From Lytechinus variegatus (Eukaryota > Echinodermata > Echinoidea > Temnopleuroida > Toxopneustidae): a stretch of DNA of 64,000 nucleotides. The stretch spans positions 57,235,195-57,299,194 of the forward strand of contig NC_054742.1 of assembly GCF_018143015.1 (NCBI RefSeq), given 5' to 3'. Numbering within the stretch: position 1 is the first letter of the stretch; the number at the start of each line of letters is the position of its first letter. Below are positions 491-32,490 of this stretch, one piece after another. The notes under the pieces were generated by a model that worked only from the letters and a program-made list of their open reading frames with translations, was not told the DNA's origin and ran no database searches. The position numbers and the translations under genes were made by a program.

Positions 491-1451
491 TCACACTTTT
501 GGAGCACTTTTATCTCTGGTGACCGTTTTCTTCAAGCTCATACCCTTCCTTATGTCACTCAAGAGGGCGCCCCTGCCTTCCACATTTGGAACATCCCTTG
601 CAGCATTACTGTTACTGGAAGCTGGGGCAAATCCAATTGCTGGCGGGGGTGCTGGCACTGACGGTGGAGGAGGGATAGCAGATTGGACTGGAGGAGGAGG
701 GGGAGGGGGTGCTATCGTGACAGCAGGCGCTGATGAAGATTGTTGTCTGTTCTGACTTGAATTAGCCACGTCTCCATTTGTTGCCGTCGATGCTCGCTTG
801 GATGAACTCTTGTTCTTATTTCTGTTCCATGCATAATAAAAAGTACACAATAATCAATATAAAAAAAAGGTGAGAGGGAATAATATCAAACAGATAAAAA
901 CAAATTTAAGGATAATAAATGACAATGATACATGTAGAAAAATAAGGAAAGAGAAAAAAAACATAACAAAGAGAAAGAGATATGAGAAAGAGAAAGCGGC
1001 AACAATGAAATGAAAGGAACAAAGGAAACAAAATTTAAATCTGAATATAAAGAGATCGATATAAAATATGAAATGCAAACACAACTCATTCAGAGATAAA
1101 TCTAACTACCTAACTGAGAAAAAAAATGAAGCAATCACTAACTAATGGTTGAATTTATAGTATTTAAAAAATTGATAAATAAACAACTCAATGAATTAAG
1201 AAATTAATATAAAAATGGATAAGTAAATAAAAAAACAAGAAAGTAGAATAAGAAGACTGAAATACATGTGTGATGGCGGCAATTTGGTGTAATGTCAAAA
1301 TACGGCACTTGTCAAAATATTGCTGTTGTCAACATATGACACTGCGGCACTGTTTTCACAACTACATGTGAATGAATGACATATGAACATGTTGATGTTT
1401 GATACTCACCTGAAAGATGACCTTGCATTTGCATTTGACCTTGAGCGAGAT
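491..1451 (-). other. PXK-like: Exons 14-15 of the PXK-like gene: Ser/Arg linker, poly-Pro and WH2 tail
   Basis: Exon 14 (1451-1410) encodes SRSRSNANARSSF. The terminal exon (821-491) encodes a basic Ser-rich linker, two Pro runs (seven and four prolines) and a C-terminal WH2 motif: GRGALLSDIRKG, then LKKT and SAPKV just before the stop. The same order (basic linker, poly-Pro, WH2 at the very C-terminus) is seen in vertebrate PXK, where the WH2 binds actin. This is the strongest evidence tying the gene to PXK. Confidence 0.88.
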
Positions 1452-4400
1452 CTAGAGTATTGCAATAAAGATATGACGAGAAGCATTCTTTTTTAATGAA
1501 TGAGATGGGTTGACAGTTGACACACTATGATTCTTGAGTTTCTAATGATATGATATATTATCATCTATATATAGTGTTCTAATGATGCATTAAAAACGCG
1601 TATTTTGGTCTGCATCAATTGCCTGTGCAGTATCAGAGCGTATCCCAAAAGAGGACCTAAATCTGACGAATATCCCATAGGCTCCTGTACAAAATTTGTA
1701 ACTGAATATGAGAGCTTATTCAACAGTTTAGGGTGTGTGCATGAATGTGTGAAATATACGTGTTCAACAATGAAAGCAATGCGATGCGCAGCATAGAGCA
1801 CAACTATGCTCCATGACGTCATCATGAACTACACGCAAGTCGCATGTCAACGACCAAAATTGATCCTATGAAGTGATAATGGCATAATGTGATAAGTGAT
1901 ATGACTTGTTATATCAAATTTTCCGTCCCTTTTTTTATGGGGGGGGGGGGGTGGGATAGATGACAATACAGTAATTATATTGGATGGCGTTATTTCATGA
2001 AATACCAGAAATATTCCACTCGTTAGGGCCAATATTCCACTCATCAGCGATTCGTGGAATATTTTCCTGAACTCTTGGAATATTTCTTGTATTCCATTCT
2101 GAGCCATCCAATATAATATGTTGCACTGCTTCTTTGCATGGTTGCAGAGATTATAGCAGATGATGATGATGATGATGATGATGATAATGCAGGGTCATCA
2201 GTCGTTTGTTATCCCTAACAGGATGGGGAATGGGGCATGATGGGTCTTCCCTTGATGCTTCGCTCGTTTTTTCTGGAACACCATCAGATACCACCGCAAA
2301 ATTTCATGGCTTTTTTCTTTGGAGTCTTTTGCAACTTTTGAGACCACAATGGCATTGTCACATCCTGTGACTTTTCATGATACATGTTATGCCAAAAAGG
2401 GCTCACTTTTATACTTTGTGTTCATAGTCTATAGGAAATGAAATTCATAAAATGGTGCTTATTTTGCATTCTAGTTGGTCTGCTTAATTAGTTTAGGGTT
2501 TAATTTAGTTCTGTTCAATTTAGGTCTGTATAATTCCAATAAAAAAACACAATGAAAAACAAGATGAAAAAAATGAAGAAAACATAAGGAAAAATTTGGA
2601 TATTGCAATTTTTCTTTGTGAAAACCTTTAAATAAGACTGCAAAGATGACAACTTGAAAAACAATACAAAGGTGAAGTGAAATTTGGTGTTAAGTATGCA
2701 AATAATGTTTTTCATGAATAAAGTTTGATATTTTATTCATAGTCAACAAAAGTTGCATTACTAATGTACAATGAATATCTGACAGAAGGGAAAGCAGACA
2801 GTGTGGATTGTTAAGATTTTTCTGATTTACTGCTGATCCACAACAATTTGCAATTTTGGAGAGCAGACAGGCCAATCAAATGAACTGATTTATTCCGGGA
2901 TGTGAATGCAGACAATACTTGAAGAAATTTATTGACATTTTAAAAATAGAAATAACAGATGATACTCCATTAACCAGACTGAGAACAGCAAAAAAAATTA
3001 TTCTGAAAAATAGAAACTTTTCATTCCTCCATAAGATTCAGGTATTCACAAAATCATATGTGGAGAAAAAGACAAGCTTAAAGGGGAAGTTCACCCTGAA
3101 GAAAACTTTGTTGTAAAAATAGTAAAAAATATTGGTGAAGGTTTGAGGAAAAATCCGCTAAAGGGTAAGAAAGTTATCAGAGTTCAAAGTTTTGAATTTG
3201 TGACGTCATAAACGAGCAGCTGCCTCATGTGTTATGTAATATAAAATGCATGAATTTTAAATTTTGCATGGTTCCTGATGACTTAATTTTGTTTTCTATT
3301 CATCATCGGGGGTGAAATGATTTGTCTATTGATACACAAAAGTTACAGTGACAACTATTTTCAATTTTCTGAGAAAATGACATTTCATTGATTTTTTACC
3401 ATTCGCTATGTAGGAATGCTGCTCGCATATGAAGTCACAAATCAAATAATTGAAATTCTAATAACTTTTTAATTATTTAATGAAATTTTCTCAAACCTTC
3501 GGCAATATTTTTTATTATTTTTTCTGCTATTTTTACAATAAACTTTTTGTCAGGGTGAACTTCCCTTTAATAATTGGCTTTCCCGATAGTCTAAACACAT
3601 TTAAATTCGCAAAGATTTATCTTTGGCTGGTGGCTTCAGTGTTTATCAAATGTCAATTTTATCAACTGAGCACTTTCCCTAATCAATACTCTCTGCCCAT
3701 AGAGACTAAATATTAAATAACTCTGAGGAAAAAAAATGGAGAAAACACTCATGGCTAAATTATTAGTGGGTTTTAAAAAAAAATATATTTTTTTCATTTT
3801 GAGGACAATGTCCTCTGACAACCCATCCTATTTCTGAATTTTACAGACACTGAATGTTTGCAAACAAGGTGTAGGAAATAGTCCTTTTCTTCAAAATTCA
3901 GAACGACAGGGCCCTGGGAACAATCTTTTTGACTGCGGGTACTGATGTCAATTTGACGTGCAAAAATAAAAAAAAAATTTTTCAGTCCAAATTGAAAGTC
4001 AATTTTCGTCCCAAGATACATTTATTTTGAAAAGGGTTTCGGTAAAAAAAGTAGGTAATTTTAGATACATTTCTCCATCTTTGTCACACGATCCAGAGTT
4101 CCTGGGGGTGCTGCCTATGGAAAATAACACACACAGCACACCCAAGGAAAATCTTAGGGGTGCTTCAGCACCCCCGCTTCCAAGTAGTCTGCAGGCACAG
4201 ACCCTGATTGAAACTTTGATCACAGAGTGTGTCTCCACGCAAAGACTAGCACATACAAAACTTGCTGTGACTTCAGTACACAAGGCATGAGTAGGCTGCA
4301 ATTCAGACCCTTTACTCGAGTGAAGGGTTTGCCCAGCAGACTAGCTTCTAAGGGCCATGGAACGAGAATGTGTGTACGTTTGCAACGACATGTGACCGCA

Positions 4401-7400
4401 CAGGGCTAAAAGAGATAAATCATGGTCTGGGCCTATTTTTTTATTATTTCTGACACCACTGAAGCCAAGGAACAATGAAAATGATATATCCTTGTAGTCT
4501 CTAGTTGCCTTCTGTACAATAATAATAGAAATATACTGCTTTTGTATACATAGCACTTCATACATTAGAAGAATGTCTCTAAGTGCTTTTGAATGCTGGG
4601 TAATCTTGGCTGGTGGCTCTCTTGTGGGGAGCATAAATCATTAATGAAAAAACAGATTGCAATTTGAATATTGAAATGAATATGATGAAAGAAACTTTGT
4701 GGCTTATAATATTTGCTCTGCCTAGAAGCAGTTTGTCTCCTTCTAAGATGGTATAGTAACATAAGGGCTAACAATTTGGTTGAATATCAATTTAGTCTAA
4801 TGGCATTTTGGTAGACTCTACACTACACTTGGTCTAAAACCCTCTTAGTCTAATTTTTGTTCCATCAAATGCCAAATTGGTCCAATTTTCACTTTGTCTA
4901 CTAATTATAGCACTTGGTAGAATGAAAATTTGATTCATTAACGGTTCATTTAACCATATAGACTAAAAAGTTGTTACACCAAGCAGATATTAGATGAAAT
5001 AGGTATAGACTAACTGGAAATGGGCTAATTAATTATTAGACCAAGCAATTATTGGACGAAGTAGACCATGCGGGATGAAACAAACGGTAATCAGCAGTGT
5101 ATATTTACCAGCTCGGCTGGCTAAGAAAAATAATAAGCTCTCTATTAAAGAAAATTAGCTTGTGAAGTATTTCTGGTAAACATGGAATGATGATATCTTA
5201 GGCATTTAATGAGACCTTTCTCCCCTATTTGTACTGATACATTTAATAATGTCCTTCAGTATTCATATCATACTATGGAAATATAAATTAAATGACATGA
5301 AATGTTCTGCACATGTGTATTAATATACCGCATTCCAAAAAACTCAGAACCTTGTTGGACTTTTCATCGAAAGATGACCGTGTGAAGAGCCAGTTTTGCA
5401 CATTAAACACCCTTAGAAGAAATGTTCATGAACTAAACAGTGAAGGTAATATAATGCACCTACCTGTATCATATTTCATATATAGTCATAACAGGTCAAC
5501 ATTTGAGTGAACACAAAATGAAGGATTGTAAACTAAATGAACTCAACAATACATCCTAAAGCGCACATTAAAAATAACCATGTAACATTTACAAAACATA
5601 AAACACTCAGACCCGAATTCACAAAGCTGGGTGGGTTTGAATCTGTGGTTTGAAACCAATGTTTACGCGGATCTGATTCATTAATTATGCATAATTCAGC
5701 AAAGGGTATTAACAAAATGTCCGATAACTAATACACACTTTTATCAAAGTGCACTAATTGTACACTTGTTAAATAAATAATCAATGAATATGTTAAATTA
5801 ATTTACTCTGATCATTAATACAGAAAACGCAGTAACAAGCATGAAGTTAGCGCCCTGTGGCAAAAGCTAGGACTTATTATTAGATACTATTTCAATGTAC
5901 ACATTGACTTAATACCCCCATCTCACTAGATGGCGATTTCGCTGCGATCGTCAAAAATCGACAAAGCGTGGTATATCGTAGCTTGAACGTGGCTTGATCT
6001 TTTCAATCTTCTCCGTCGTACCTTGATCTTTTCTGAAGCGGCAAGGATCGCCACCATCTTCCTGGTCGCCACAAAATTTTGAACATGTTCAAAACTTACG
6101 TAGCGAGATCGCGGAGGTGCTAAAGCGCATCATAATCGAGTCAAGAGCGTATTACAAACGACATATTCGTAGCTGTAACGAAGCTCCAACGCACAAAGCG
6201 TAGTAGAAGCGCATTAAAAGCGGCACCGATCGTCCGTGTTTTTCAGGCCCGTTCCCAAGACAATTCTGCTACGCTGCTTCCGTTTACGAGGCGACTGCCT
6301 TGCGCTCGACACGCTTCACACCGTTTCCACCACGACGCTTTCCCTTTGGGTGGCATGTGGCACACGTTCTCAGCCCGCTGCAGGCATTCGCGTTGCGCTT
6401 TTGCTGCGCCGCTGATGACTGGCCAGCGATTGAGCAGCGACCGTCTGCGCTGCTATGAAACAACGTGCCGATGGTAGCGGATTATCACATTTTCAACAGA
6501 TTACGAGGCGACACCACGACGTTTTCAAATATACTTCCCAGAAAAAGGACCAAAAAGGGAAGCTGCCCAATCTGTTATGCCGGCGGTCCAAGAGGTTATG
6601 GTGGTGGTAGAGGAGGAGGAGGAAGAGGAGGAGGAGGAGGAGGTATAGTAGGAGGATGAAAATCTAACTGCTGAGCCAGCTTGAAAGAGAGAGAAAAAAG
6701 ACGCTCGCATGTCTTGATGACGAAATGGGTTACCTCCGCAAAAATATATAAATTGAATATGTTTTAAAAATAGAATGAATTCTAACTACAGTGACAGTAA
6801 ACAATATTAAATTTTTAATGATTCGATCACTGATGTATTGATTGGGAAAGCACACTTTATGGGGATTCTGGCATTGTGCCCCCCCCCCCCCCCCCGTTAT
6901 GAGTGCTCTCACATCAGTAGACTACTTCTTGAAAGCAAATTTGAAAGGAATTTACCTAACAATTTTGAGTGACAAACTTTTGTGGAAAAAAATAAACAAA
7001 ATATAAAACATTTTTATGCTCTTTTATGAAATTCTGGATGCATCCCTCATATTAACTATTAGGCTCATCGACATCTTTTGAGTGAAAGTTTAATATATAT
7101 TGTATATTATGACTTAAGTGACAGCCAGGATCGGACCCAGTATCTTTTTGACCTCCTCCTTCTACTGTCCTCGTATCAGGTCCTCGTATTCAACTTCTAA
7201 TTGAAGTTGTTGTATAATGCTAAGATGTATAAGTCCAACCAAATTCTGGACATCCATCTTGGTCGGAGGTTGGCAATCGACTGAAAAATGTCTCATGTGC
7301 CGCGATCAATATGCCGATTGCTTGAAATCGTTTCAAGAGCCCATCATGAACGTAACACAATCGTTCCATTCGTAGCACCACCGTACCGAGGTCCTATTTA

Positions 7401-10400
7401 GCGTATGGGCCTCGTTGTACGGTCGCTTTGATTGCAGAAGCAGCGCATCACATCTGCCTCAAATCGTGGCAAGAGAGTGGCAGCGTCGTACTACCAGCGT
7501 ATTACCATCGCCTTCAGCGCAGGTCCGTCGCAGTGAAGTTGTAGTGCAATCGCCTCGCAGGCTAAAAATAGAATTCGAGGACGATTCTGCTACGCTTTGC
7601 GGGATTTAGACAGATCGCCATGGTCGCCAAGGTCGCCATGATCGCCATCCTAGTGAGATGGGGGCCTAAGCACAATCAATGCTTGAAATCTTGATGAAAA
7701 CCACGTTAGGGGTTCTAATTTCTTCTTCCTTGTCAAATATTGAAGCCACATTCCAAACCCCTATTGAAATCCCCGATTATGGGACTGGGTTCAAAATCAC
7801 AGATTGAAAACCACCTTTGTTGACTAAATAATTGTAGTGAAATATGTTGTGCCTTTCTATAGTTTACTCAGGCTAAAATATAGAGAATGAATAGAAAATT
7901 TGTGAATCTTTAATATATGCTATTTTTAGTGAATATGTAGCGATTCTGATGACATGGAATTAAAAAGCTTAAATCCATTTCTATGTCTTTGATGTAAATA
8001 GTGCACATTAGCTCAGAAATGCAATGTCATATTGATATGTTTTGGAAGAAATTTATTGCACCAGCATTGAAAGGGTGAAGTATAAATGACAATATTACAT
8101 TCAAACTTACTTGAGAACTTTTCCTTTCTTTGCCGCCTTGATCAGAGCTTTCATTGCTGCAGTCAGATGAATCTGTAAAGTAAAGATTTTGTTAAATTTA
8201 GATTTATTCTTATTTCATTTGATCTTTTAGGCCTGATGTCACCAGTACCATCAGAATATGATCATAAGTGCCCTAGGCTATACATACCAAACTATAGACC
8301 ATAATTGAAAACACACATATTTAATCTATTTAACAATAATCTCTTGTAATGAAACCAAACTTCATTTATTAAGATTCACATTATCACTTTCACCCACAAA
8401 GGTAAATTGTGTAGTTGGATGCATATATATGTACTGGAGGAGAGACTCCAAGTAGTTGTTTCATAAAGTTGTTCATAAGTTACAAACAAATAGGAGTGAC
8501 TAGTGATCATTTCTTGAGAGCTAAATCAACAGCAATGATACTTTGGGAGTATATATGATTTAGTGCAAGATAGGGTCACCAGTCGTGCATAGTAATCTTT
8601 ACAAACAGCTTTATGAAATCAAACCAGGGGTAAAGACTCTGGAAGCCTCTCCCGTCATAAGTCAAATAAACAATATGTATTATATCAGTAGTTTCAATTT
8701 GAATATATTCTTCCATTTTTATCATTCACTGCATATTCATGATTCAGATGTTGTTTGAAGGTTTGCATGGTGGCTTGTACAATTGCTGATGAGGTTTACT
8801 GTACACCATGTGGAGTGTTATTGAAATAGTGGATAGAAGAAAAGGAAATGGATAGGCAAGAAAGTGGAGATTTGAGAGTAGAGTATTCTTTCCTTGAATG
8901 TAGTCCTAAAAAGGACTGTAAACCAGAAGAGATTGATGAGTTAAAAACAGCTTGAGTAGTAGTGTGGATGAGGAGATGCTGGCTTGTGTTGGCGAGTAGA
9001 GATGATGAGTACTGCTTCTACTCATCATCTCTACTCGCCGACTCAAGCCAGCATCTCCTCATCCACCATACTACTCAAGCTGTTTTCAACTCATCAATCT
9101 CTTTATGTTTACAGTCCTTTTTAGGACTACATTTAAGGAAAGAATACCGGTACTCTACTCTTAAATCTCCACTTTCTTGCCCATCCATTTCCTTTTCTTC
9201 TTCTATCCACTATTTCTATAACACTCCACATGGTGTACTTTAAACCTCATCAGCGATATTCATGATTGTGTTCCAAGAGAATTTCAATTTCTATAAACAT
9301 AAACATGGTCTCTTTCTTGGGATTTCCAATCGCTGGCTCCCTTTCAACCCAAATTCAAAACAACCATCTTTGTAAATGAAGTGAAGATTCAGGAATATAT
9401 TTCTTACATTGCTTGGTGAATGTTTCTTCAGCTCGGGTAATTTGACATCAGCGAAGAAATGGTGATCTGCTATCTGGAAGTTAAACAAAACATTTCTTCG
9501 TGATAAGCTCATCCACGAAGTGACACTAGCACCATCACCAGCACAAAATTTGATTTTTTTTTTTAATATTAAACATAATAAATATCATTTGTGACCAACT
9601 TAAGATCTAGTTATCAATAATCACGGTTACATTTTTTTTTCTGGGACAGCTGTTACATTTTATTGTTCATTAAACTAAATATATCAATTCAAGAAATATA
9701 TTCTTATCTATGTCATATTAATATTTTCAACCACAATACCAGTGGCAACTGTTCAACTTCCTGTTTCATTCCAATCAATCCTCTTTTCTGCAATGTGAGC
9801 ACACACAGGTGCTATATAATATTTTTCATTTCTATTTGCCTCTACAATATATCCCTGAAATTTTGTAGATTCTATGTATTAAGAGCATGTATCGCTCTTT
9901 TCCTTTTAAACAGCATACTTCTAGTAAATTCTCCACATGTCACAGAAGATTATCTATGGTTACTGGGGGTGCTGTGATAATGCCCAGCACCCCCAGTATC
10001 GCTATCCATGGGGGAATATTTAAAAGCCATCTAGATTTGCATGTGAAGCCTCATTTTTTTATGGTCACTCAGGGAAAAAAAATTGATGCACAAGGACTTG
10101 GGGTTGATTCACCCTCGAAATGACCCACAAAAAACCCTGAACAACTTAACAAAATCCCCAGAAATTCTAAGGAGGTCCAAGGAAAACTGTAATTCAATGT
10201 TGCAAATTTCGGCTGGATCACAAGTTGCCCCACAAAGTATTTTATTAATTCAAAACAAATATCACAGCCCCTGAAAGTATTCTATTAATTCAAAGCCTGT
10301 GGTGACCAGAGGCTTTGAATTAACAAAATACCTTTTGGGCCTGTGGTCACTAAAATTCAGAGAGGTATGAATATTGTTATCAAACTTGTGGCATTATTGC

Positions 10401-13400
10401 AATGCCGCTGTATTGATGACAAACGACAAAAACAAATTCTGAATTTGAAACAAATATCTAAACAACTTAAAAAAAAAACAAGAGGCATAGAGATGTAGAG
10501 AAACATTAAGCAACATCTGTATGATACAGGGAGAAAAAGTGACAGAGACAAAGAGAGATACAACACTATGACAATCTTTAAGAGACCAAGGGCTGGTTTC
10601 ATGAAAGTGGCACAACTCCAGGTCGATGCAATCTCTATGGAAAGCCAAGCTTGACAATACCTTGATTAAACAATACAGAGACCCACAGAAATTGCCCATG
10701 GGAAGGATTACAGACAATTATTGTCCAGCTTGGCTTTCCGTAGTGATGATGTTGAGCTTGATTTATGATGCTTTGAAAAGGGCCCAGTACAGCCCCCCCC
10801 CCAAAAAAAAAAATACTCACATCAGACAGAGAAGGATAATCGCCTGCTATATCAAAGATGAATTCTAGCAGCTGTAAAAAAAATGGAAAAGAATATTTTT
10901 CTTAGATTGTTCAGTAATGAGAAATTGCAACAAAGTGTAATATGAAAATTAAGGGTACACATACATTGTAACAGCTGCTCTGCTAAAGTCAGGTAAATTA
11001 TGCTGCATAATACCTGTCGAGTGCTTAAAGACTTTTGAAAAGTGTTAAGCACTATATGAGCATGTATAATTATCATTATTACTTGTGCATCAGAAAAAGA
11101 AATATAATTTTTAAGTACTGTAATGTAAAATATACAATGGGAAGCTATTGGATACTGTTAGAGCAACCTACTTCCATATTGACAAAAGGGGAAAAAAAAA
11201 TCATATGGTATATATTTCAGTGTTGCATTTGTCTGAAATTTCTCTTTTGATCCAAATAAATTTTTCTTGGGGTGGACTTAGGCACTCTCAAGTATAAATG
11301 AAATAAAATTACCTGAATAAGTTCTGAATATTTACACCTATTGAGTTGTGCTCTCGTAGGAACAGCTTCTTCTAATTCTCTACCAGCACCCATTTCATAC
11401 AGCAGATGCCCTGTAAAAAATATACAGACAATGAAAAGGGGGGCATTACACAAAGAGCTGAGAGTGACTCAATGTCTTAATTTCTCTCAAATACCAGTGT
11501 GCACATGATATCTAACACATAATCTCTTTGAGACATATGCAGTCTACATTCTCTGAACATGATATGACCAATGCTATGATGCATATTATCATGTAATTGG
11601 AAATTAAGTGTGATTTTTGTGAAACAAAAGACTTTGTGAAACAAAAGACTTAAGACTTTTGTGAAACAACTCCCAGTTATTCTTTGTTTCTCAGACTTGC
11701 TCTTAAGCTTCTTCTACACTATGAAAGGGCGCTGTTTCGCAAACCCCTTTCAATTTCAGTAAAATCGGTCAGTCAGTCATCTACATGTAAAATCCAATTT
11801 AGTCCACAACCATGGAGGTGGTCGGATTCACCTTGCACTCACAGAGATCACCTTTACCCCTTCTCTCCACTTTAACCTATTCACTGCATCCTCCTCCCTC
11901 AAACCTAACCCTCCTACACCACTTGCTTCTTCCATGTCTCCTTCAGTCGCCCTGAGATGCAATGTTGCTATGGTAACCGTCACTGAGCAACAACTCTGCA
12001 GCGATGACCATTTCGTGTAAAGACCTGGTCAAACAGGTTACAGGCATAGCTAAGATGCAACTGAGAATGTGTATGGTGGGTCAGCCGATGTCCCCTACAA
12101 TATCAGTGCGATTTGACAGTCAGAATACAGAGAAAATAGTGGTAAATTATATCAGGACTTACCCATACAAATGCTGTCGATGGCTTCTGGTTTATCCTTC
12201 AGAAGACGCCTTATGATAGGAAAGAGTTTGGACGTGTACCCGAGGAAGACGTTCTCGTAACCCGCCAATCTGGAGTCAAGACAGAATTAAACAGTAAGAG
12301 AGATATATGGAGAGAGACAGACAGAATGATAGAAAAGAGAGCGGGTTAGAGTGGAAGACAGATATCAAAAGAGAGAAACGAAAGGGAACATGGATGAAAT
12401 GGAAAGACAATCACAGAGAGACACAAAAAGATGGGGAAGAGCCAGAGAGAGAGAGTGAGGGAGATAGAAAGAGAGAAAAGCAGACAAACAGAATTGTAAA
12501 TATTAAAAGAAGTGACAATCAATATCACCATGTGTCACCATAAATACTTGCAGATGTTTCTAGTTGGTCTTAGTGGTACATGTATGACAATGAAGAAATA
12601 CCAAGTTCAACTCAGTGGGTGGTATTCCTTACTTTTAGACTATGTTTTATCATACCCCTTCCCCCAAACCCCTAAAACAATACAAAAAACAAACAAGCAG
12701 ATATTTACTTTGATCGGTCACCAGAAAGATAAAAAAATTTCTTGTAAAATCACAAAATCAATATTTGTTGTTGTTGTCCACATCATTTTGATTTCAGGTT
12801 TTACTACTTGTACTTCCATTTATCATTCAGTAATGAATTTGAATAGTGATAGATACATTTGGGGGATTTATCAAAGCTAAATAAAGACATTAATCCCAGG
12901 TACTGACTTCACAAGCAGAATATATCTGCAAAAAAAAAATCATTTGTTTATTGCAAATCCTAGAGCGCTTTCAATCTTACCTGCAAGCTCCTTTTTTCAT
13001 GATGACATTGCCTGCTTGGATGTGACAGTGTGGTGGAAACCCGTTCTCTTGCAGGTATAATGCTCCCTATCATACACAACAAATACAAACATGATGGATC
13101 CCAATTTATTATGAATCCACTGTTGGCTCAGTCGGTAACGCGTCTGCCCGTCGAACCAAAGATCGTGGGTTCGAGTCCACCCCGGGCGGATGACTGAAGC
13201 CAGTGCGTTGTGTGTAAACGTCGCTCCCCATGTTTCATAGATGCAGGCTATGTTACAATGGAAAACACTCCGTCCCTCGGATAGAACGTTAAATGGAGGC
13301 CCCGTGTAGAGGAGAGTCACCACCTTTGCACGTTAAGAACCCATTGCACTATTCGTATAAGAGTAGGGGGAAGCCCCGGTGTAGTGGTCCACCTGCATTC

Positions 13401-16400
13401 CCCCAATCAGTTATATCGGGAGGAGAGACCTGCGGGTCACAGTGATTCAGTTCGCTTTTCGCCTCCCAGGCACAGGTGACGCCAAAACAAATAATAATAA
13501 TAACCTTGTCCAAACCTAACCCAGAAAAGACCGGGGAAGGGATTAAAGGTCCCTTACAATACATAATGTGAAACAATTTTGGCGGTGACATTTCAGACAT
13601 TTTTCTTTTGAGAGTCATTTATTTTTTTTAGACCAAACGTATGATGCCAATTATGAAATTCCAAAGTTGTGTAACATTATCGCTAGAGGGTATTCATTTG
13701 TCTCGCAATCTACTATGGTCAACAAGGAAATTCGTGATCACTCTCGCAAAAAGTGTTCACTGGCTTTCTAGGAAATGCGTGATCACTCTCGCAAAAAGTG
13801 TTCACTAGCTTACAAGTATAAATAGAGTACGATATCGGACAATTTTCGTCACTTGATAAAGAGTTGCAGCGGCACTCGAAAGCTCGTGAACTTGTAAGCT
13901 AGTGAACACTTTTGCGAGAGTGATCACGCATTTCCTAGAAAGCCAGTGAATACTTTTTTGCGAGAGTGATCACGAATTTCCTTGTTGACCATAGTAGATT
14001 GCGAGACAAATGAATACCCTCTAGCGATTATTTCAATCCGCAATAATGAACCTATTTAGTATTGTGTAATATTGTTTCGAGCATGTCTACCAGTATTCAA
14101 GATAATACACAAAAATGCTCAAAGACATGATTTCATGTACAAATCCAATCCAAACTGTGTTGCTACAAGCTAGCCACAATTCATAGATATATCATTATTT
14201 TTTACTTTATATATTCTTTATTTTCATTTTTCATCATTGGAAAAGTGTCCATGAAAAATGAAAAACAAAACAATGATCAACACATAGGAAATTTGGAAAC
14301 AATACATATATGAGATGTTTAGCCGTTAAGACTTATTTAGGTCAAATTCTAATTTCATGCATTGATTAGCACAAGTACTTAATTTTGAATAATTTTGGAA
14401 CAAGCAAATGTATAATTTTGCCACCCAAAACCAATAATGGGTCACCCAAACTGTATTTTGATATATTTATTGAGCTCGAAAACATACTTTTTTTAAAGGT
14501 CTAAAATGAAATGCAACTTCATGTAAATTTATAAACAATAATCCATACAAAAAGTTATTTAAAGTAGAAGAAATTTGATGAGAGCTTGAAAGAATGAAGA
14601 CAAAATAATGTCTGACGTTCGGGGTTCATTCAAGCATGCAATGCACACACTGAGTAATCTCAGTGAAACTTCAATGACGTCCAGAAAAAAGTGGTGTCAA
14701 AGAAATTCTTGTAGTTTGTCATTTATTTAATGTTACAACTTCCAATTCTATCAGTATAAAGGAGAATATTTTTTCTTTAAAAATGTTTTTAAAAGTCCAA
14801 ATTACTATTTTGGTTATTTATAGAGTACCTTCCCTATTGAATTAGAATTAGTTTGGGTTTGGAAAGTTGCATATTAGTATGTTTACCTTAAGTATTTGTA
14901 GACCATACAATCGGATTTGTTTCAGAGCAAGACCCCTTGACTGCATAGCATATTTATTCGACCAATCATGTCTTGGTTTTACCTGTAATGAAGTATGGAG
15001 GCGTATCTTATTAGCAAACACTTTACATGAATTTAATCATATATAACACATTAAAGTGAAATTCATCAAACTTGCATACACATTGACTTGAAAATGGTAT
15101 TCTACTTCCACACGTCCTTCATTTGGGAAGAGCTGGACAATTTATGAAATCAACAGTCTGTTATTTTTACCATTTTTCATTTTGAGAAAATTAAGATTAA
15201 GGGGGGGGGGGGGCTGGCTAAAGCTAGCAAAAAAAATGCAGTACTATAAGCTAATATTGATGTTGAACCACATGGGGCAATTAATTTTCTATATTATCTC
15301 TGTATAAGTATGTGCAGTTTTATGCAACATATAAATTTGCATCATAGCACGTTTCAAAAGTGAAAATGAAACTATTATTTCTCTGTTTATATTGTTATCA
15401 CATGACTTTCAACTCAAATAACTATACATTGTATTATTATCTGTTTGATATACATTGGCTGAATAGGTAATGAGAAAAAAACCTTCATACATGTATATCA
15501 TGCAAGTTCACTTTATACTCCATGAAAAGATCTGGAAAGAATAGTACCTGCTGACAAGCAGTATGATATTCTGTATCTCCTAATCATAATAATAATAATA
15601 ATAATAGGCATTTAAATAGCGCCATCTATCTAGAAATATTCTATTCCAAGGCGCGTTGTTATTATTATTGTTACCCCGGCTTTAGCTTGAGCTGCCTTTC
15701 AGCACTCATGCATTCAAGGAATTAATCCTGCCGGGTACCCATTCACATCACCTGGGTTGAGTGCAGCACAATTTGGACAAATATTTTAACTTCTGTTTAA
15801 TTTCCTAATCCTCAGGTACTAGAGGTAGTTTTTTTATATTCAGAAGAATATGAATGGCACATGGACATTTCTTGTCACTATTTCTTGTTACAAATTCGAA
15901 GATATGCAAAATCAATATGAAATAAATTATTTTTTTACACATATTATATCAAATTGTCAGATTTGAAAACTATAGTTAAAAACTTAATCATCCTTATTAT
16001 CAGTACAATTGGTTATTGTTCACAACTATATCATTATGCAAAATTATTCTTTTTCAGAAGAATGATTTTTAAAATTTCATGTAACTTACATTGTAAATAT
16101 AATCCTTCAGTGATCCATTTGAATTGAATTCTTGTGTCAAGATTACCATCTCATGCTCCTCCCACAGATCAATATCTATGGTAGGCCAGATGTAAGGGTG
16201 CTGTCAATAATATAAAAAAAGAAGAAAAAGTCTAGTCTTCATTTGTTCCATATTTTCCTTCCTTCTCTTCAAAAAGCAGACTGAATCTATGCTATTTTTA
16301 ATAAGAAATCATTATAGTGCAATATTTCCAAAGTCATACACTAAAAATAAAAGAATCTATTTCAACAAAGTGTTGATACTACTTTAAAATATATATATAT

Positions 16401-19400
16401 TTGCATAAATATGATTTTTAAAATAGCAATACAGAGTTAATCATATATAGAGTCTGAATGAACAATTTTTTTCATAGTTTTTTATATACATGCAAAAGTA
16501 TCACCCTAATGAAACTTAAAGAAAAAAAAATTGTCATTCAGACGCTTATCAAAATGAGAATTTTATTCTACGAAGATCAGATTTAACTATAATTAATAAG
16601 AATCAAAATGACTGAGAATTTGATTAAGCACCCAAGAAAGGATCACAACTTTACAAGTTGTCCATAAACTTGTGCATAACTTTAAAAAGCTTTATGAAAC
16701 GGTTCACCTTATGAAACACCCACCTTGGGCCTGTGGCACAAAACTTTTGACTTAAAAAAACCTCTGGCAAACACTGTAATTATGTGTATTTTGATCAATA
16801 TTTGACCATGTTGTTACAATGTACACCAATAGTTTATGATCAATAAAATTACAAGAAAAAAAAAATCTGGCAAACATAATCATGCCATTGACATGTAAAA
16901 AACATTGATAAACATAGCCAGAGTTTTTCTATTACACAACAGGCCCCTGCTTTGTCGCTTTGAACAATGAAATATCATACAAATCATCCAGGATATCATG
17001 TAAACTCTACCTTTAAATCCAGCAGCATATCTCTTATTGTCTTCTGGTTTGAGAAGGAGAAAGGCAGAGGGCATACAGGGCTCTTGGAACACTGCGTTAC
17101 CACAAGATCCTTCCAATGACCATGCTCTCTGACCAAGAACCAATACTTGTCCACACGGCTACCTGAATGGTGTATCAATAAACATGAATGAAATGAAGCA
17201 ATCCATTATTATATAGTATTCATATCATCTGACAAGTTATCAGGGGCCCGTTTCATAAAGACTTACAACTGTTGTAACTTTGCCATTATGGCAACTACCA
17301 TGGTGACCTTGATTTTGATTGGCTGCTGAGCCCTGTTACCATGGTAGTTACCATAAAGGCAAAGTTACAACAGTTGTAACTCTTAATTAAAGGACAAATC
17401 CACCCCAACAAAAACTTGATTTGAATAAAAAGAGAAAAAATCAACAAGCATAACACTGAAAATTTCATCAAAATCGGATGCAAAATAAGAAAGTTATGGC
17501 ATTTTAAAGTTTCGCTTATTTTCAACAAAATAGTTATATGAACGAGCCAGTTATATCCAAATGAGAGAGTTGATGACATCACTCACTCACTATTTCTTTT
17601 GTATTTTATTATATGAAATATGAAATATTTTTATTTTCTCATCATTGTCATGTGAAATGAAGTTTCATTCCTCCCTGAACATGTGGAATTCCATTATTTT
17701 AACATTTTGTGCTTCAGGCAAGGAGGTCCTAATCGTCAAATTCGTAAAAATTGAAATATTGTATAATTCAAACAATAAAAAAAAAAGAAATAGTGAGTGA
17801 GTGATATCATCGACTCTCTCATTTGGATGTAACTGGCTCGTTCATATAACTATTTTGTTGAAAATAAGCAAAACTTTGAAATGTCATAACTTTCTTATTT
17901 TACATCCGATTTTGATGAAATTTTCAGCATTGTGCTTGTCTGATTTTTCTCTATTGATTCAAATCAACATTTTTCTGAGGTGGACTTGACCTTTAAACGG
18001 GGACCAGATCTGACAACTTTTCTAGGCTATGATTGGCTGAGAAGCACAAGGGTCAGACTACTTATGGTGGTAATTAGTGGATAAAACAAACTTTGTCAGA
18101 TAAAATAGCTTACAAGCTCTTTCATGACACAATCCCCTGAGTAACAAGTGTATAAAGTGAAACTCTGATCATTCTAGAATTAAATACATGAAAATTTGGA
18201 AGGGCATGCATAGATAAGTAAATTCTATATAATTCTATCAACTGATATAGCTCATCTGATAGCATACAAAATGTGAGTAATGAAATACAAATCAAACAGA
18301 CAGAGAGGAAGATGGGAGAAGTAAAGAAGTGGTCAGTAGGCTCTGCTCTGAAGTATTAACATATATATATATTTGAATGAACTATAAAAGGATTATAATA
18401 ATCCCAAAAGGACCAAACTTTCATGACCTCAATATTCACTTACCCATATCAGGAAGGTGTTGGCTGAAGCTGTATTTAGGGTTGTGAGATCGCATGTAAA
18501 ACTGGAAATTCAGGAGGGCACCATCTGTTGAACCAAGAATGCACAATCCATGTTTGAAAATTACTATCTGAGAGTAATTTTACATTGCAGATTAGGTCCT
18601 TGAATACGTGCATTTAAACAGTAAGACTCAAAGGATCAAATAAATTAATAAATGATTGCAAACATTATAGCAAATTCTAATTGATTTTAAAACTGAGAGC
18701 TTAGAAATTTTCTTTGCTGGTTTGATTTTGTATGCTTATTCTCCTTACTTTTTATTAACTACAAATTACAATTCCTAATACATTTTTAGTAATCTAAAAT
18801 ATGCATGCATTTTTGTGACTCTCGTGACACATTTCGAGTGTGTCTCCAACTTGACAAATTGTCAAGCTCGGTTAATAAAAGTGCAAAAAAGAAAGTGAAA
18901 AGTTAAAATGGCTATAAGATTAGACAGAATACAAAACTGATGTATTTACAAACAACAGAACATGTTTTTATTAGTGTCATTAAAAAAGACATACTTTTTT
19001 TGCAAATATAGGATTGTGTATCTCAGTCATTTGTAGGTGAAAGGGAGTGAAAAATAAGATTTAACCTTTTGGACATGCTCCTATCCAAAAATAAATATTC
19101 TTTATCGATTGGTTTAACTTAAAATATGAAGACTAGGCTGTCTAGTTACATGGAATGGCTGAAAAGCAAATTTATTCTCTGTATTATCAACAGTTACCTC
19201 AAAAGATATATTTCAAGACTACCAAGTTTTAATAAAAAAACTTACTTTCCACCTCAAAACATGTAGGCACAAATTCACAAAGGTGGTTTTAAAAACCGTC
19301 AATTGAACCCATGGTTTATGCAGATTTCCAGAATTGACACCTGTTGCCATGGTTAAGTATGCTATTTTATTCATGAGTCCACTGCTTGAAGAGTGGACTC

Positions 19401-22400
19401 ATTAATTCAAAACGGTGGACTCATGAACAAAATAGCATGGATAACCATGGCAACAGGCCTCAATTTGGTGCACAGTGACAAAAACCAGCATCAGCATTGG
19501 ACATTCTTTAATATACGTGGTAAATAAGCATAATCTATACAGGAAATCTGCACAAACCATGGGTTCGACCGATGGTTTTAAAAACCAGTTGTAAATTTGG
19601 GCCTTAGTTTCCCTGTATACTTCAAAAGCTAATTTATTCTCTTTATTTACAGTTACCTAAATAGGTAGGGTATATATTTCAAGACTACATACAGCTACAT
19701 GTAATTATAACACACAACCAATGAGGGACCACACACAGTGTTGGGAAGTTTAAATGACAAAGGAATACAATAGGCCATTAAGGATATACCTGCTATAAAC
19801 CTAAAGAAAGATTTACCTCGGACTTCATTCCGCTGGATTTGTCTGGCCTGAGAGAGTTTTTCGGGCAGAGCAAGATCTTCTTTCAATGGAGTATAATCAT
19901 AACGAGTGCAGCGTCTGTTAGAAATTACATTGGGGAAACATTGGAGGAAACAAAATGGGAGAATAAAAACAAAAACATGTGATGAAATTAGATAGATGTT
20001 GAAAAAAAAGCTGCTAACATACAATTCTTTTCATCGTCTGTCTTCCAGAATAAAGGCAAATAGCATATGATGCTAAGCATAAACTCCATGTACATATTCA
20101 AGATGTGAATATATTAGATTACATATTTTGAATTGGCTAAAACAATTTCACATGATCATTTTTATTTTTTTTGCTAATTGTACACTAACATTCAACATAA
20201 TTTATGCTATTTGTAACAAAATATTAACATACCTGTAGTACACACAACATCCCCCCTCAAAAAAAAAAGAAAATGAAAAAATAAATAAACCACCTGTTAA
20301 AGTAAAAATAGTCTAGGGCCCTGTAATCTCTCTTTGTGTTACAGGGCCCTGATTTTGTAAAATTCCCTTTTATTTTTTCCCAAACCCCTTCCATGGCATG
20401 TCAACCACTTTTGACCCCAAACATGACAGAATTGTATACATTTTGTGCTTTGAATGATAACATTTTAGTTATTTTAAATTACAAAATAAAGAAATATGTA
20501 TACACAGTATATCATTACCGAGTAAAGATAATTATTTACACCATTACATGTGTTTTCATTGGGATTTGACACCATTTGGATAGAAATCACCTAGAGTAGA
20601 TTTATGACCAGCAAACATTATGTAATGCCACTGGAAATTGCCTTATGGTTAAGTCACCATCTCACTTTCCCTTGCCTGACAGTTGCTTGAACATAGGGCT
20701 GAAGAATTTGCTTTCCCCTAAAGATGTCTCTGTTACAGGGATTTCCAATGCTTTCACAAAATCTCGGGTCAGCAAATAATTGCCGATGAAATATGATCCC
20801 TATGTGACATTAAGTTGAGATTTATAAATCACATATGTACATGAGCCAAATGTTCATCAATATTTTTTTTATATTTATAGAGATTATCAATTAAAGAAAA
20901 AGGCTGATTTTTTATCCACTGATGACATGCCTTCATCTATTACACTCTTACCTGTATAACTTGTAGAATAAGTAGATAAGGACTAGAAGTAATATGACAG
21001 ACACGACCCCAATCACTATTTGCAACTATTGGGGAAAAAAGGATAACATGAGATAAATATCAACAAAAATTCCTGTAGGGGATAAGGCAGTGCCTATATG
21101 CCAGATGAAATTTCTTCTTAAGGGGAAGTTTACCCTGACAAAAATAATTGTAAAAATATACACAGAAAAAATAATAAAAAAATATTGGCAAAGTCTGAGG
21201 AAAATCCATCAAATAAAAAGTTATTAGAGTTGGATTTGTGATGTCATATACAGGCAGCTTTCCTACATATCGTATGGTAAAAATCAATGTAATGTAATTT
21301 TCTCAGAAAATGAAGTAAAAAATGATTTTATACCTGCTCCTTACCTAACATATCAGGCAGCTGCTCATTTATGACATCACAAATCATAAACTTGAAATTA
21401 TAATAACTTTCTTAACTCTTTAATGGATTCTTCTCAAACCTTCACCAATATTTCTTATTATTTTTTTTTTGCTATTTTCACAACAAAGTTTTCGTCAGGC
21501 CATCACGGTGAACTTCCCCTTTAAGCTTAGCTTTGTCTAAAATGCAAAGACCATTAATTCGTCTGATGGACAATGATTATAAACAAGTGGAATGCCTCTG
21601 GCCGTCTCACCTGCATCACGCGGTTCAATATAGCAGCAGTGTTTACTTTGAATACTACTCTAACTTGCACAAGATGTTCAGTGATACATGGTTACTCTTA
21701 TGTCCACTTTTTATGAACTAGACCAATAAACTTACAGAGATATGATGGTTATTCAACAAAAACCCCCAACATGGCCAAAGTTCATTGACCTTACATGACC
21801 TTTGACCTTGATCATGTGACCTGAAACTCGAACAGGATGTTCAGTGATACTTGATTACTCTTATGTACAAGTTTCATGAATCAGATCCATAAACTTTCAA
21901 AGTTATGATGGTAATTCAACAGATACACCCAATTTGGCCAAAGTTCATTGACCTTTGACCTTGGTCATGTGACCTGAAACGCGCACAGGATGTTCAGTGA
22001 TACTTGATTACTTTAATGTCCAAGTTTAATGAACTAGACCAATAAACTTTCAAAGTTATGATGGTAATTCAACAGATACCCCCGATTCGGCCAAAGTTCA
22101 TTGACCCTAAATGACCTTTGACCTTAATCATGAGACCTGAAACTTGCACAAAATTTTCAGTGATGCTTGATTACTATTGTGTCCAAGTTTCATGAATCAG
22201 ATCCATAAACTTTCAAAGTTATGATGGGAATTCAACAGATATCCCCAATTCGGCCAAAGTTCATTGACCCTAAATGACCTTTGACCTTGGTCATGTGACG
22301 TGAAACTCATGTAGGATGTTCAGTGATACTTGATTAACCTAATGTCCAAGTTTCATGAACTAGGTCCATATACTTTCTAAGTTATGATGACATTTCAAAA

Positions 22401-23665
22401 ACTTAACCTCAGGTTAAGATTTCGATGTTGATTCCTCCAACATGGTCTAAGTTCATTGACCCTAAATGACCTTTGACCTTGGTCATGTGACATGAAACTC
22501 TAATAGGATGTTCAGTAATACTTGATTAACCTTATGGCCAAGTTTTATTAACTAGGTCCATATACTTTCTAAGTTATGACGTCATTTCAAAAACTTAACC
22601 TCAGGTTAAGATTTGATGTTGACGCCGCCACCATCGGAAAAGCGGCGCCTATAGTCTCACTTTGCTTCGCAGGTGAGACAAAAACTGAATACAATCAAAC
22701 ATTGTAAAGCACTGGTGTCAAAACTTTGGTAAAAATTATGCACATTTCTAAAAGTACTCTGATAACAGAAAAAACAGCCTTGTTTGGTTATGGATGGGGG
22801 GTAGGGAGGGGTAAGGTAAGAAGTGGTAACAAAATATGGACAAATATTTACCATTTTTTAGATATTAAAATTTAGACAGTGTTCAATAAAAAAACAAAAG
22901 AATCATGACAAGTCTTGAAGCTGAGATATTGCGATAACATTGTGATAAAAATGAGATCTTGAAAAAGGATCACTGTATTTGAGTGCTCAATTATACCAGC
23001 ATTTTAAAAAAAGAAGTCAATCTTACTTTTAAATTTCAACTATGAAAAAAGGCCAGAGATGATATGATGATTGTTGTTGTTGAGGTCATTTAAAATAAGA
23101 GTAAGAGGAATTGAGCAAATGAATGTCATGATCAAACATTAATATCATTTTTTACAACAGCGAAAAATAAATGAATTGTATTATTGTATCTAGTCTGATT
23201 AGATCTAGGCCCTAATGTGATTTCAATCTATTTGAAAAGAAAAATAAAGGAAAAGAAAAGAAAAGAAAGGAAATGGCCTTTATTCTTCAAATGAGAGAAC
23301 AACAAGAAAAGAAGAAATAAGACAGAAATAAAACAACAGAAAGGAAAAAGAAAAAAAAGAGAATAATATAGGATAAAATCTCAAGCGGTGGCAAAAACAA
23401 GAACTTTGAAGTTTGAGAATTCTGAATTCAGGTAATTTTTAATCTCAACTTCAACCTCGCACTCGCATTGTTGTTGTGTGCAATTAAATATTTACCTACA
23501 AAAATATACATTGACGGGACTGAACTGAATAATCAAATTGGTAGTATCGCACCACTGACATTGCCATTAAAATATCGAAAAAATACGCACCCATATGTGT
23601 TCTTGTAAGTAATTAGGGGGTTCGGATGTCCCTTCGAACGAATTCAAGTCATCCATCATGTCCAT
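491..23665 (-). CDS. PXK-like: PXK / Slowpoke-binding-protein-like membrane pseudokinase, 15 exons, 509 aa
   Basis: Exons 5'->3' on the minus strand: 23665-23591, 21025-20952, 19914-19817, 18524-18444, 17162-17011, 16200-16090, 14982-14887, 13066-12981, 12269-12163, 11410-11313, 10871-10821, 9473-9408, 8172-8111, 1451-1410, 821-491. All introns are AG/GT and all phases agree, giving 1530 nt including the stop. Recognisable PXK-family blocks are HPYI..T (aa 161), GSLKDYIYN (189-197), LQENGFPPHCHIQAGNV (catalytic-loop position, about 234-250), GHLLYEM (294-300) and a terminal WH2 (about 482-509). The PX domain of PXK is absent. Residues 26-48 form one transmembrane helix instead, followed by basic residues. 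The fly relative Slob binds the Slowpoke BK channel, and PXK binds membranes, Na/K-ATPase and actin; the role here is inferred. The catalytic HRD and DFG motifs are replaced, so it is probably a pseudokinase. The ATG at 23665 is the simplest start; in-frame upstream codons to 23842 are open, so an earlier start cannot be excluded. Confidence 0.9.
1974..2117. mobile_element. Short MITE with 15-bp TIRs
   Basis: ATTATATTGGATGGC at 1974-1988 is mirrored by GCCATCCAATATAAT at 2103-2117, with GGAATATT motifs repeated inside. Confidence 0.75.
2155..2190. repeat. (GAT)n microsatellite
   Basis: About ten GAT units at 2158-2186, in intron 13 of the PXK-like gene. Confidence 0.9.
3078..3570. mobile_element. 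TTAA-flanked MITE, AAAGGGGAAGTTCACCCTGA family
   Basis: TTAAAGGGGAAGTTCACCCTG at the left is mirrored by CAGGGTGAACTTCCCTTTAA at the right. Further-in mirrored blocks include the GTCATAAACGAGCAGCTGCC/CATATGAAGTCACAAATC region. The TTAA target site is typical of piggyBac and Kolobok superfamilies. Confidence 0.8.
4100..4185. repeat. GGGGGTGCTG/CAGCACCCCC mini-palindrome repeat
   Basis: CTGGGGGTGCTGCC and TTCAGCACCCCCGC with an ACACACAGCACAC spacer. A smaller relative is at 9963-10000. Confidence 0.45.
4780..5085. repeat. TTGGTCTAA-rich dispersed repeat
   Basis: Many spaced copies of TTGGTCTA, TAGACTAA and TAGACCA in both orientations. A relative lies at 55830-56180. Confidence 0.5.
5605..7835. 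mobile_element. Older MITE (family TTCACAAAGGTGGTTTT) split by the 1.75-kb element
   Basis: The left part at 5612-5700 (CCGAATTCACAAAGCTGG, GGTTTGAAACCAATG, GCGGATCTGATT) and the right part at 7785-7835 (GGGTTCAAAATCACAG, TGAAAACCACCTTTGTTGA) match the ends of the complete copy at 19263-19605. This suggests nesting. Confidence 0.5.
5914..7665. mobile_element. Non-autonomous DNA element, 1.75 kb, with 24-bp TIRs
   Basis: The ends are CCCCCATCTCACTAGATGGC at 5914 and its inverse GCCATCCTAGTGAGATGGGGG ending at 7664. The subterminal regions (to about 6450 and from about 7280) are GC-rich and full of short GATCGCCA, CGTAGC and GCGCAT motifs, while the centre is AT-rich. No transposase frame was found. 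A Gly-rich frame at 6465-6659 (GGG runs) is a (GGA)n simple repeat. Superfamily not assigned. Confidence 0.75.
8785..9254. repeat. Large inverted repeat (hairpin), arms about 230 bp, 7-nt loop
   Basis: Left arm 8785-9011 and right arm 9019-9254 are near-identical inverted copies (for example GAGTAGAGATGATGAGTA against TACTCATCATCTCTACTC at the tip, and GCTGATGAGGTTTA at the base). It lies in intron 12 of the PXK-like gene. A transcript of either strand would fold into a long double-stranded RNA. Confidence 0.88.
9480..10810. other. Intron 11 of the PXK-like gene; short repeats only
   Basis: Contains a small CAGCACCCCC palindrome (9963-10000), a local repeat (TATT.TATTAATTCAAA at 10238-10325) and an inverted pair GGAAAGCCAAGC (10640/10728). 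No exon seen. Confidence 0.5.
13113..13500 (+). repeat. tRNA-derived SINE (family 1), near complete
   Basis: The head carries Pol III box A (GGCTCAGTCGGTAACGCG, near 13124) and box B (GTGGGTTCGAGTCCACC, near 13165) with tRNA-like spacing. The acceptor stem does not pair well, so this is not a working tRNA gene. The body contains GAACGTTAAATGGAGG.CCCGTGT and GCACGTTAAGAACCC, which resembles a core shared by many marine-invertebrate SINEs. The 3' end is an (AAT)n tail. It lies in intron 7 of the PXK-like gene, opposite in strand. Confidence 0.8.
13681..14026. mobile_element. Fold-back element, 346 bp, long internal inverted repeats
   Basis: Arms 13681-13816 and 13891-14026 are near-perfect inverted copies, starting CGCTAGAGGGTATTC. 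Each arm holds two direct copies of a GTGATCACTCTCGC-AAGTGTTCACT module. The 74-nt loop contains TATAAATA at its left border. Flanks are ATTAT on both sides, a likely 5-bp target duplication. It is non-coding and lies in intron 7 of the PXK-like gene. Confidence 0.85.
15585..15790 (-). repeat. 5'-truncated copy of SINE family 2
   Basis: It shares the body (GGGTACCCATTCACATCACC, TGGGTTGAGTGCAGCACAAT) with the 39.2-kb SINE but lacks the tRNA head. It begins at an (ATA)n tract, the family's 3' tail. Confidence 0.65.
16728..16930. mobile_element. Worn relative of the 47.1-kb hairpin MITE
   Basis: GGCACAAAACTTTTGACTTA and CCTCTGGCAAACA at the left, and CATAGCCAGAGTTTTTCTAT at the right. Confidence 0.5.
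17243..17384. mobile_element. Palindromic MITE (GGGGCCCGTTTCATAAAG family)
   Basis: GTTACAACTGTTGTAAC-type inverted arms and TACCATGGT.A palindromes on both sides of a GATTGGCTGCTGAGC core, lying directly left of another MITE. Confidence 0.7.
17387..17996. mobile_element. TTAA-flanked MITE with long TIRs, AAAGGACAAGTCCACC family
   Basis: The ends TTAAAGGACAAATCCACCCC and GAGGTGGACTTGACCTTTAA continue as long inverted arms (AAAATCGGATG.AAAATAAGAAAGTTAT mirrored by AACTTTCTTATTTTACATCCG). It is non-coding and lies in intron 4 of the PXK-like gene. Confidence 0.85.
17997..18136. mobile_element. Worn copy of the GAGCGTTTCAT MITE
   Basis: GGGGACCAGATCTGACAACTT, GATTGGCTGAGAAGCAC and CTCTTTCATGACACAATCCCC match the family. 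It abuts the TTAA MITE ending at 17996. Confidence 0.55.
19263..19605. mobile_element. MITE (family TTCACAAAGGTGGTTTT), complete
   Basis: The TIRs read GGCACAAATTCACAAAGGTGG and AAAACCAGTTGTAAATTTGGGCC, with GGAAATCTGCA motifs inside each. An internal secondary palindrome (ATGAGTCCAC...GTGGACTCAT) lies at about 19365-19440. Confidence 0.75.
21118..21526. mobile_element. TTAA-flanked MITE, second copy of the AAAGGGGAAGTT family
   Basis: The ends TTAAGGGGAAGTTTACCCTGA and GGTGAACTTCCCCTTTAA, plus the AGGCAGCTGCTCATTTATGA core shared with the 3.1-kb copy. It sits just upstream of the transmembrane exon of the PXK-like gene. Confidence 0.78.
21640..22681. repeat. Tandem satellite array, about six units of 153-192 bp, with DR1-like sites
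   Basis: Each unit contains AAAGTTCATTGACC, TGACCTTTGACCTT, CATGTGACCTGAAACT, GATGTTCAGTGATACTTGAT and CAAAGTTATGATGG. TGACCTTTGACCT occurs exactly at 21796, 21949, 22112, 22275 and 22467. The array ends in a distinctive tail (GCGGCGCC.., CTTTGCTTCGCAGGTGAGAC). It lies in the intron after the first coding exon of the PXK-like gene. Confidence 0.85.
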
Positions 23666-31899: not shown

Positions 31900-32490
31900 T
31901 TGATTGGTCACTGATATCGCGATGGAGCTGTGAGCTTCAGTGATAGTCTTCCTAGTCACTTCTGTCTCCCGCATGGAGTGATACAGGTGTCTATGACTAC
32001 AGGATCTGCTCCTGGTGTCCCTTTGTGATGTGCTGCCTTTGATTCTAGATGTGTTGAGCTTCATCTTTGTACTTCTCCTTATTACATTCTTCTGATCTCA
32101 GCATACACCGAGACTGGTTCATAGAATGATGTAGGAGTCTATCTATAACTACAAACTCTGCTCCATGAGTCTCCCTCGGGATGTGCTAGCGCTGGCTACC
32201 ATGTGCAATGTACCTCATTTTTATGCCCATCCTTGGATCTGCAAACGATCATCTTAACCAGACCTTCAAGTTTCCCATTGTTATGTGGTCGCGCTGGCTT
32301 CCATGTGCAATTTTTCACTTTCACGCCCATCTTTAGACGTGCTTACAATCACCTTAAAAGGAGACCCTCAAGATCAGCAAGCACTCTCTGAGTCACTTTC
32401 TCCTGCTTCAGAGTGAGAAGCAGATGCCTGTCTATGACTACCAGCTCTGCTTCTGACGTCACCTTGGGATGTGCTGGGCATGGCTTCCAT
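31900..32490 (-). repeat. Diverged repeats of the GRAMD4 exon 17 tail in the 3' flank
   Basis: The coding tail around 32420-32490 recurs near 32113-32195 and 31970-32045, sharing GTCTATGACTACNNG.TCTGCT, GGGATGTGCT and GGCTTCCATG. A further copy of the GCGCTGGCT.CCATGTGCAAT block is at about 32290. Translated, the copies preserve STSQRDTRSRSCSHRH-like sequence but are broken. They are probably 3' UTR. Confidence 0.65.

Follow-up and report, generated by a model that had tools for sequence, protein, structure and literature searches.

Among the non-enzymatic kinase homologues surveyed in human, mouse, rat and fly, the Slob subfamily has four entries, of which three are named as PX-bearing (PMC2754085). 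AAM68879 (646 amino acids, aa) is given as PX-bearing there; AAN10635 (638 aa) does not carry this label (PMC2754085). For the PX domain of PXK, the ligand appears as '3', read as phosphatidylinositol 3-phosphate (PI3P) (PMC8156045). Forms of Slob are described to shift the gating of large-conductance potassium (BK) channels, and the fly forms Slob57, Slob71 and Slob53 differ in their channel effects (PMC4598779). In addition, SLOB RNA interference (RNAi) is reported to abolish a neuropeptide-induced change of the calcium-activated potassium (KCa) conductance (PMC11906214). Here, we analyse a related gene from the sea urchin Lytechinus variegatus that lies on the minus strand of a 64,000-nucleotide (nt) stretch of contig NC_054742.1 (assembly GCF_018143015.1, positions 57,235,195 to 57,299,194; hereafter the window). 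We take AAM68879 and AAN10635 to be fly proteins and AAN10635 to be Slob. With a probability of roughly 70%, the window gene is genuine and intact and encodes a second pseudokinase of the PXK/Slob family; it would be a paralogue of canonical PXK in which three exons have replaced the 5' PX exons and whose product would serve as a membrane-anchored scaffold. At the level of sequence, an exon chain, homology to PXK, a hydrophobic helix, the absence of a detectable PX and a WH2 match can be seen.

The exons of the gene were read one after another on the reverse strand, and the resulting model was compared with the remainder of the same genome. Splice-phase joining yields a chain of 13 exons from position 23656 to 491 of the window (minus strand). 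All 12 junctions are in phase, and each of the 12 introns has an AG acceptor and a GT donor. The coding sequence comprises 1,398 nt including the stop codon, is free of premature stops and frameshifts and encodes 465 aa. An in-frame ATG at 23665, upstream of the start at 23656, would add three residues (468 aa). Exons 4-13 were selected by eye or by a PXK-like sequence search, and their in-phase joining was found afterwards. For exon 2, phase and hydropathy served as selection criteria, and for exon 1 the ATG, frame and position. In the encoded protein, an acidic N-terminus of 22 aa is followed by a predicted transmembrane helix, a juxtamembrane stretch of basic character, a degenerate kinase-like body and, at the end, poly-Pro and WH2. 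A first-pass annotation of this DNA had proposed a PXK-like pseudokinase with such an N-terminus, helix, body and end at the same place. The architecture was recovered in the 13-exon, 465-aa model, and the 15 exons assumed earlier are replaced by 13 with every junction in phase. An open frame at 19656-19405, considered as an N-lobe exon, is not needed, given the in-phase junction between exons 3 and 4.

A separate PX-bearing PXK, for which the first-pass annotation had suggested a check, is also present in this genome. Family searches for WH2 and PX place it at C3:66.60-66.64 Mb, on the chromosome of the window gene and about 9.3 Mb away from it, and the locus comprises PX exons, a kinase-like body and a WH2 end. 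Its hand-joined, partial protein (536 aa) matches PX with E 3.3e-18 and WH2 with E 1.5e-5. The window protein is collinear with this canonical PXK from residue 80, where exon 4 (17011-17162, N-lobe) begins, to the last residue. One-against-one BLASTP yields 114 identical positions in 408 columns (28%, E 3e-26), which bears out the proposed homology to the PXK family. The kinase-like regions align with a Smith-Waterman score of 227, and 300 shuffles reach 54 at most. Both proteins share the collinear kinase-like body, a basic/Ser linker, poly-Pro and WH2. They also have two intron positions in common: two of the ten junctions in the aligned region are found at the same codon, both in phase 0 and flanking exon 6 (14887-14982). 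One further junction is one codon off a canonical site whose position is uncertain. Exons 1-3 of the window gene are without counterpart in canonical PXK. The two genes differ in that the window gene has a transmembrane helix and no detected PX, in that its DFG equivalent is further eroded, and in that its WH2 of the LKKT type lacks the insertion of three residues seen in canonical PXK. The only unusual feature of the window gene is the replacement of PX by a predicted transmembrane anchor.

A genome search with 379 of the 465 residues of the window protein as query revealed no third copy of the family; distant copies would be missed, because canonical PXK itself was detected with E 0.78 only. 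The 15 matches comprised 13 that are the window gene's own exons, canonical PXK and one match on C16 that contains two stops (E 4.85).

The kinase-like body proceeds from the N-lobe in exon 4 through exons 5 (16090-16200) and 6. Exon 7 (12981-13066) encodes the catalytic-loop equivalent, in which HCH occupies the HRD position and the loop Asn is retained. The register of the catalytic motifs follows the HRDLKxxN pattern of the catalytic loop. The DFG equivalent in exon 8 (12163-12269) reads GYE, compared to DIE in canonical PXK, which has YGH at the HRD position. Exon 9 (11313-11410) contains a GHLLYEM segment, exons 10 (10821-10871) and 11 (9408-9473) encode the C-lobe, and the body ends with a basic helix in exon 12 (8111-8172). 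The 465-aa protein has two kinase matches in Pfam, PK_Tyr_Ser-Thr (E 0.0008) and Pkinase (E 0.006), both below cut-off. In the PDB, the kinase-like part matches erbB-3 without significance (E about 0.5). Collinear homology to PXK and departure from the HRD and DFG motifs are both found here and place the gene in the PXK/Slob kinase-like family, as a pseudokinase in agreement with the earlier proposal. Without the catalytic Asp and the Asp of DFG, the window protein would be expected to have lost catalysis.

The basic/Ser-rich linker, poly-Pro, WH2 and the stop codon are encoded by exon 13 (491-821). WH2 comprises residues 438-462 (Pfam E 5e-11) and contains an LKKT motif. Thus, the window gene has the C-terminal poly-Pro/WH2 end of PXK proper. 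The first-pass annotation was right about the WH2 tail and wrong in regarding it as special: both the PX-bearing PXK and the window gene carry WH2, so such a tail is normal for the family. The WH2 score amounts to 42.3 bits for the window gene vs. 24.9 bits for canonical PXK. Judged by motifs and scores, the window gene is the more degenerate kinase of the two, yet it has the better WH2. The WH2 tail would be expected to bind actin. Its PDB matches include the WIP peptide in 2a41 (E 2.9e-5), the best solved match, and N-WASP (E 7e-4). It shares the WH2 motif RGALL..LKKT with WIP/verprolin proteins, and the similarity is confined to this motif. WIP/verprolin proteins are not known to have a kinase-like body or a transmembrane helix.

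Four WH2 matches were found in the genome, among them the best one on C13 and another one at C3:31749222. The C13 match was considered as a further PXK and discarded: its translation reads poly-Pro followed by an LKKT-type WH2. We assume that it is WIP/verprolin-like. In the PX-less gene, WH2 has the standard LKKT form and resembles this motif on C13, and the WH2 of canonical PXK, with its 3-residue insertion, reads LKRAE.

The transmembrane helix (residues 23-43) has a 74-nt exon of its own, exon 2 (20952-21025). Since the phase is 0 at the end of exon 1 (23591-23656) and 2 at the start of exon 3 (19817-19914), an exon with a length of 3n+2 is needed between them. In the 3.6-kb interval between exons 1 and 3, two candidates combine acceptable splice sites with a 19-aa hydropathy above 1.4 (3.0 and 1.42). 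As a control, a near-identical filter was applied to 348,000 bases on both strands, comprising the window, the C3:66.6 locus, the C13 locus and two 10-kb flanks. Among the 216 phase- and splice-matched candidates, with overlapping ones counted separately, 36 reach 1.4, four reach 2.0 and one reaches 2.8. This single one is exon 2 with 3.0; the runner-up has 2.23. Past residue 50, the highest 19-aa hydropathy is 0.91, and no other strong hydrophobic stretch is found. The anchor that had been postulated is represented by an outlier in hydropathy. A hydrophobic run at about 19,990-19,920 was considered as an alternative helix. It lies just upstream of exon 3, is pyrimidine-rich and precedes the acceptor at 19915, and an exon 3 that starts at 19914 is in phase with exon 2. 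For these reasons, we read this run as probably intron.

The 22 N-terminal residues encoded by exon 1, which has a candidate start codon, have a net charge of -5. The 15 residues past the helix, in the basic juxtamembrane region of exon 3, have a net charge of +4. According to the positive-inside rule for membrane protein topology, this asymmetry predicts that the N-terminus is located outside and the body in the cytosol.

The PX domain was searched for in the protein, in the window with its flanks and in the genome. It is not among the seven Pfam families listed at E<=10 for the 465-aa protein. A genome-wide search, in which 50 candidates were scored, listed 49 PX matches at E<=10, and none of them is near the window. 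Finally, a PX hidden Markov model (HMM) was trained on six further PX exons from the genome, with the PX exon of the canonical locus left out. Among 3,776 open frames of at least 15 aa in the window and 10 kb on either side, it did not find PX (best E 1.0). The same HMM detects the canonical-locus PX exon, absent from its training, with E 2.5e-15. Hence, the N-terminal PX of PXK proper was not found in the window gene, and neither were the upstream PX exons that the first-pass annotation had named beforehand as evidence against its proposal. A helix exon stands where PX sits in canonical PXK, as had been suggested.

Several points weigh against the gene being a membrane-anchored paralogue of PXK. 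Eight of the ten compared junctions do not coincide with the canonical gene. The exon chain was read from genomic DNA alone, and phase and hydropathy decided the choice of exon 2. Exons 1-3 are without detected homologue and thus lack independent conservation support. Exon 1 was assigned by splice phase and ATG alone and has a weak donor (gtgcgt), so that another first exon is possible. A 7.3-kb intron separates the tail exon from the remaining exons. The tie between the protein and a channel would follow solely from analogy with fly Slob.

The weak donor of exon 1 and the length of the first intron (2.6 kb) are compatible with alternative 5' ends: A soluble or differently targeted isoform might be made also or even mainly, and the transmembrane exons would be one optional 5' end. 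Fly Slob, with the several forms and their unlike channel effects mentioned above (PMC4598779), provides a precedent as far as described. Against this, PX homology was not found in the window or within 10 kb on either side, and exon 3 requires an upstream exon ending in phase 2, into which exon 2 fits exactly. We consider this explanation unlikely, but the best of the alternatives. More improbable is a mis-chaining, by which exons 1 and 2 would derive from another gene and the pseudokinase would start elsewhere. It would account for the missing homologues of exons 1-3 in a chain built from genomic DNA. Exons 1-4, however, are located on one strand, span 6.7 kb and join in phase, and a chance hydrophobic exon is improbable, given that the one such candidate among 216 in 348 kb is exon 2 itself. 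A decaying pseudogene copy of PXK, to which the more eroded DFG equivalent (GYE vs. DIE) could point, is very hard to reconcile with a 1,398-nt coding sequence lacking premature stops and frameshifts, intact splice dinucleotides at all 12 introns and a WH2 that outscores that of the canonical gene.

If the window gene encodes an anchored PXK paralogue, the following mechanism can be envisaged. In place of the PX exons, exons 1-3 would supply an N-terminus that is short and acidic, a single helix and a basic stretch next to the membrane. The helix would hold the protein permanently in the membrane, in contrast to a recruitment to PI3P membranes. With the N-terminus outside, the kinase-like body would face the cytosol. 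There, this degenerate body could hold a membrane partner in the manner of a protein-binding scaffold, and the basic/poly-Pro/WH2 tail could keep actin monomers, perhaps also profilin, beside this partner. The scaffold role as such is what we infer from the architecture. By analogy only, namely with fly Slob acting on the Slowpoke channel, the partner might be a channel, and the protein might then form the bridge between channels and cortical actin that the first-pass annotation had considered. Four matches to BK-type channel exons were found in this genome, on C15 and C18.

As to Slob, a second, PX-less member beside a PX-bearing PXK is found in this genome, and the window gene is probably the Slob-type paralogue. 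A PX-less member of the same kinase family beside a PX-bearing one is apparently tabulated for Drosophila, too (PMC2754085), so that the link to Slob seems to be more than a loose resemblance, albeit unproved. In contrast to the anchor predicted here, SLOB orthologs are termed cytoplasmic (PMC1420674); Slob and the window protein are likened here by description. Dictyostelium SLOB2 differs as well: it is given among weak predictions, together with endoplasmic reticulum (ER)-retention motifs, a WH2 is not mentioned in the passages concerned, and the helices are compared by description. Among the matches listed in the open-licence literature, no recognisable description of a transmembrane PXK/Slob in animals was found. 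Annotated invertebrate 'slowpoke-binding proteins' may well show the transmembrane form already.

Other features were observed in the window and the genome. A P-element-type transposase is located at 41469-43480 (plus strand) in adjacent open frames; the scanned parts of two of these match Tnp_P_element (E 4.3e-18) and the TNP-like RNase H (E 1.3e-36). At 48756-51496 (minus strand), open frames resemble exons of another gene on this strand: one has a weak Rootletin match (E 0.008, below cut-off), one is long and Ser-rich, and a third is without Pfam match. Coding-looking open frames at 32377-32703 and 35650-35997 (both minus strand) have no Pfam match at E<=0.1 (75 residues scanned in the second). 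In the window, neither RNA families at gathering score nor tRNAs were found. Sperm bindin yielded four matches in the genome (four of five candidates, best E 4e-66), a result that points strongly to a sea urchin. Two bindin loci lie on C13 at 24.948 Mb and 18.602 Mb, about 6.3 Mb apart, and each matches both halves of the Pfam profile. Relatives of bindin are found in sea stars, too.

One genome would thus comprise two routes by which a scaffold reaches the membrane, reversible lipid reading by PX and a permanent helix, and in both cases, pseudokinase and actin-binding tail appear to be of one kind. It is conceivable, though doubtful, that the PX-less (Slob) branch was ancestrally an integral-membrane pseudokinase in which PX was swapped for a transmembrane helix after duplication, yielding an anchored, actin-tethering scaffold. 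If so, the soluble channel-binding Slob would be a derived or incomplete form. The loosely described relation between PXK and Slob becomes a testable pair in an experimental animal. This raises the question by which route Slob-type proteins reach their channels.

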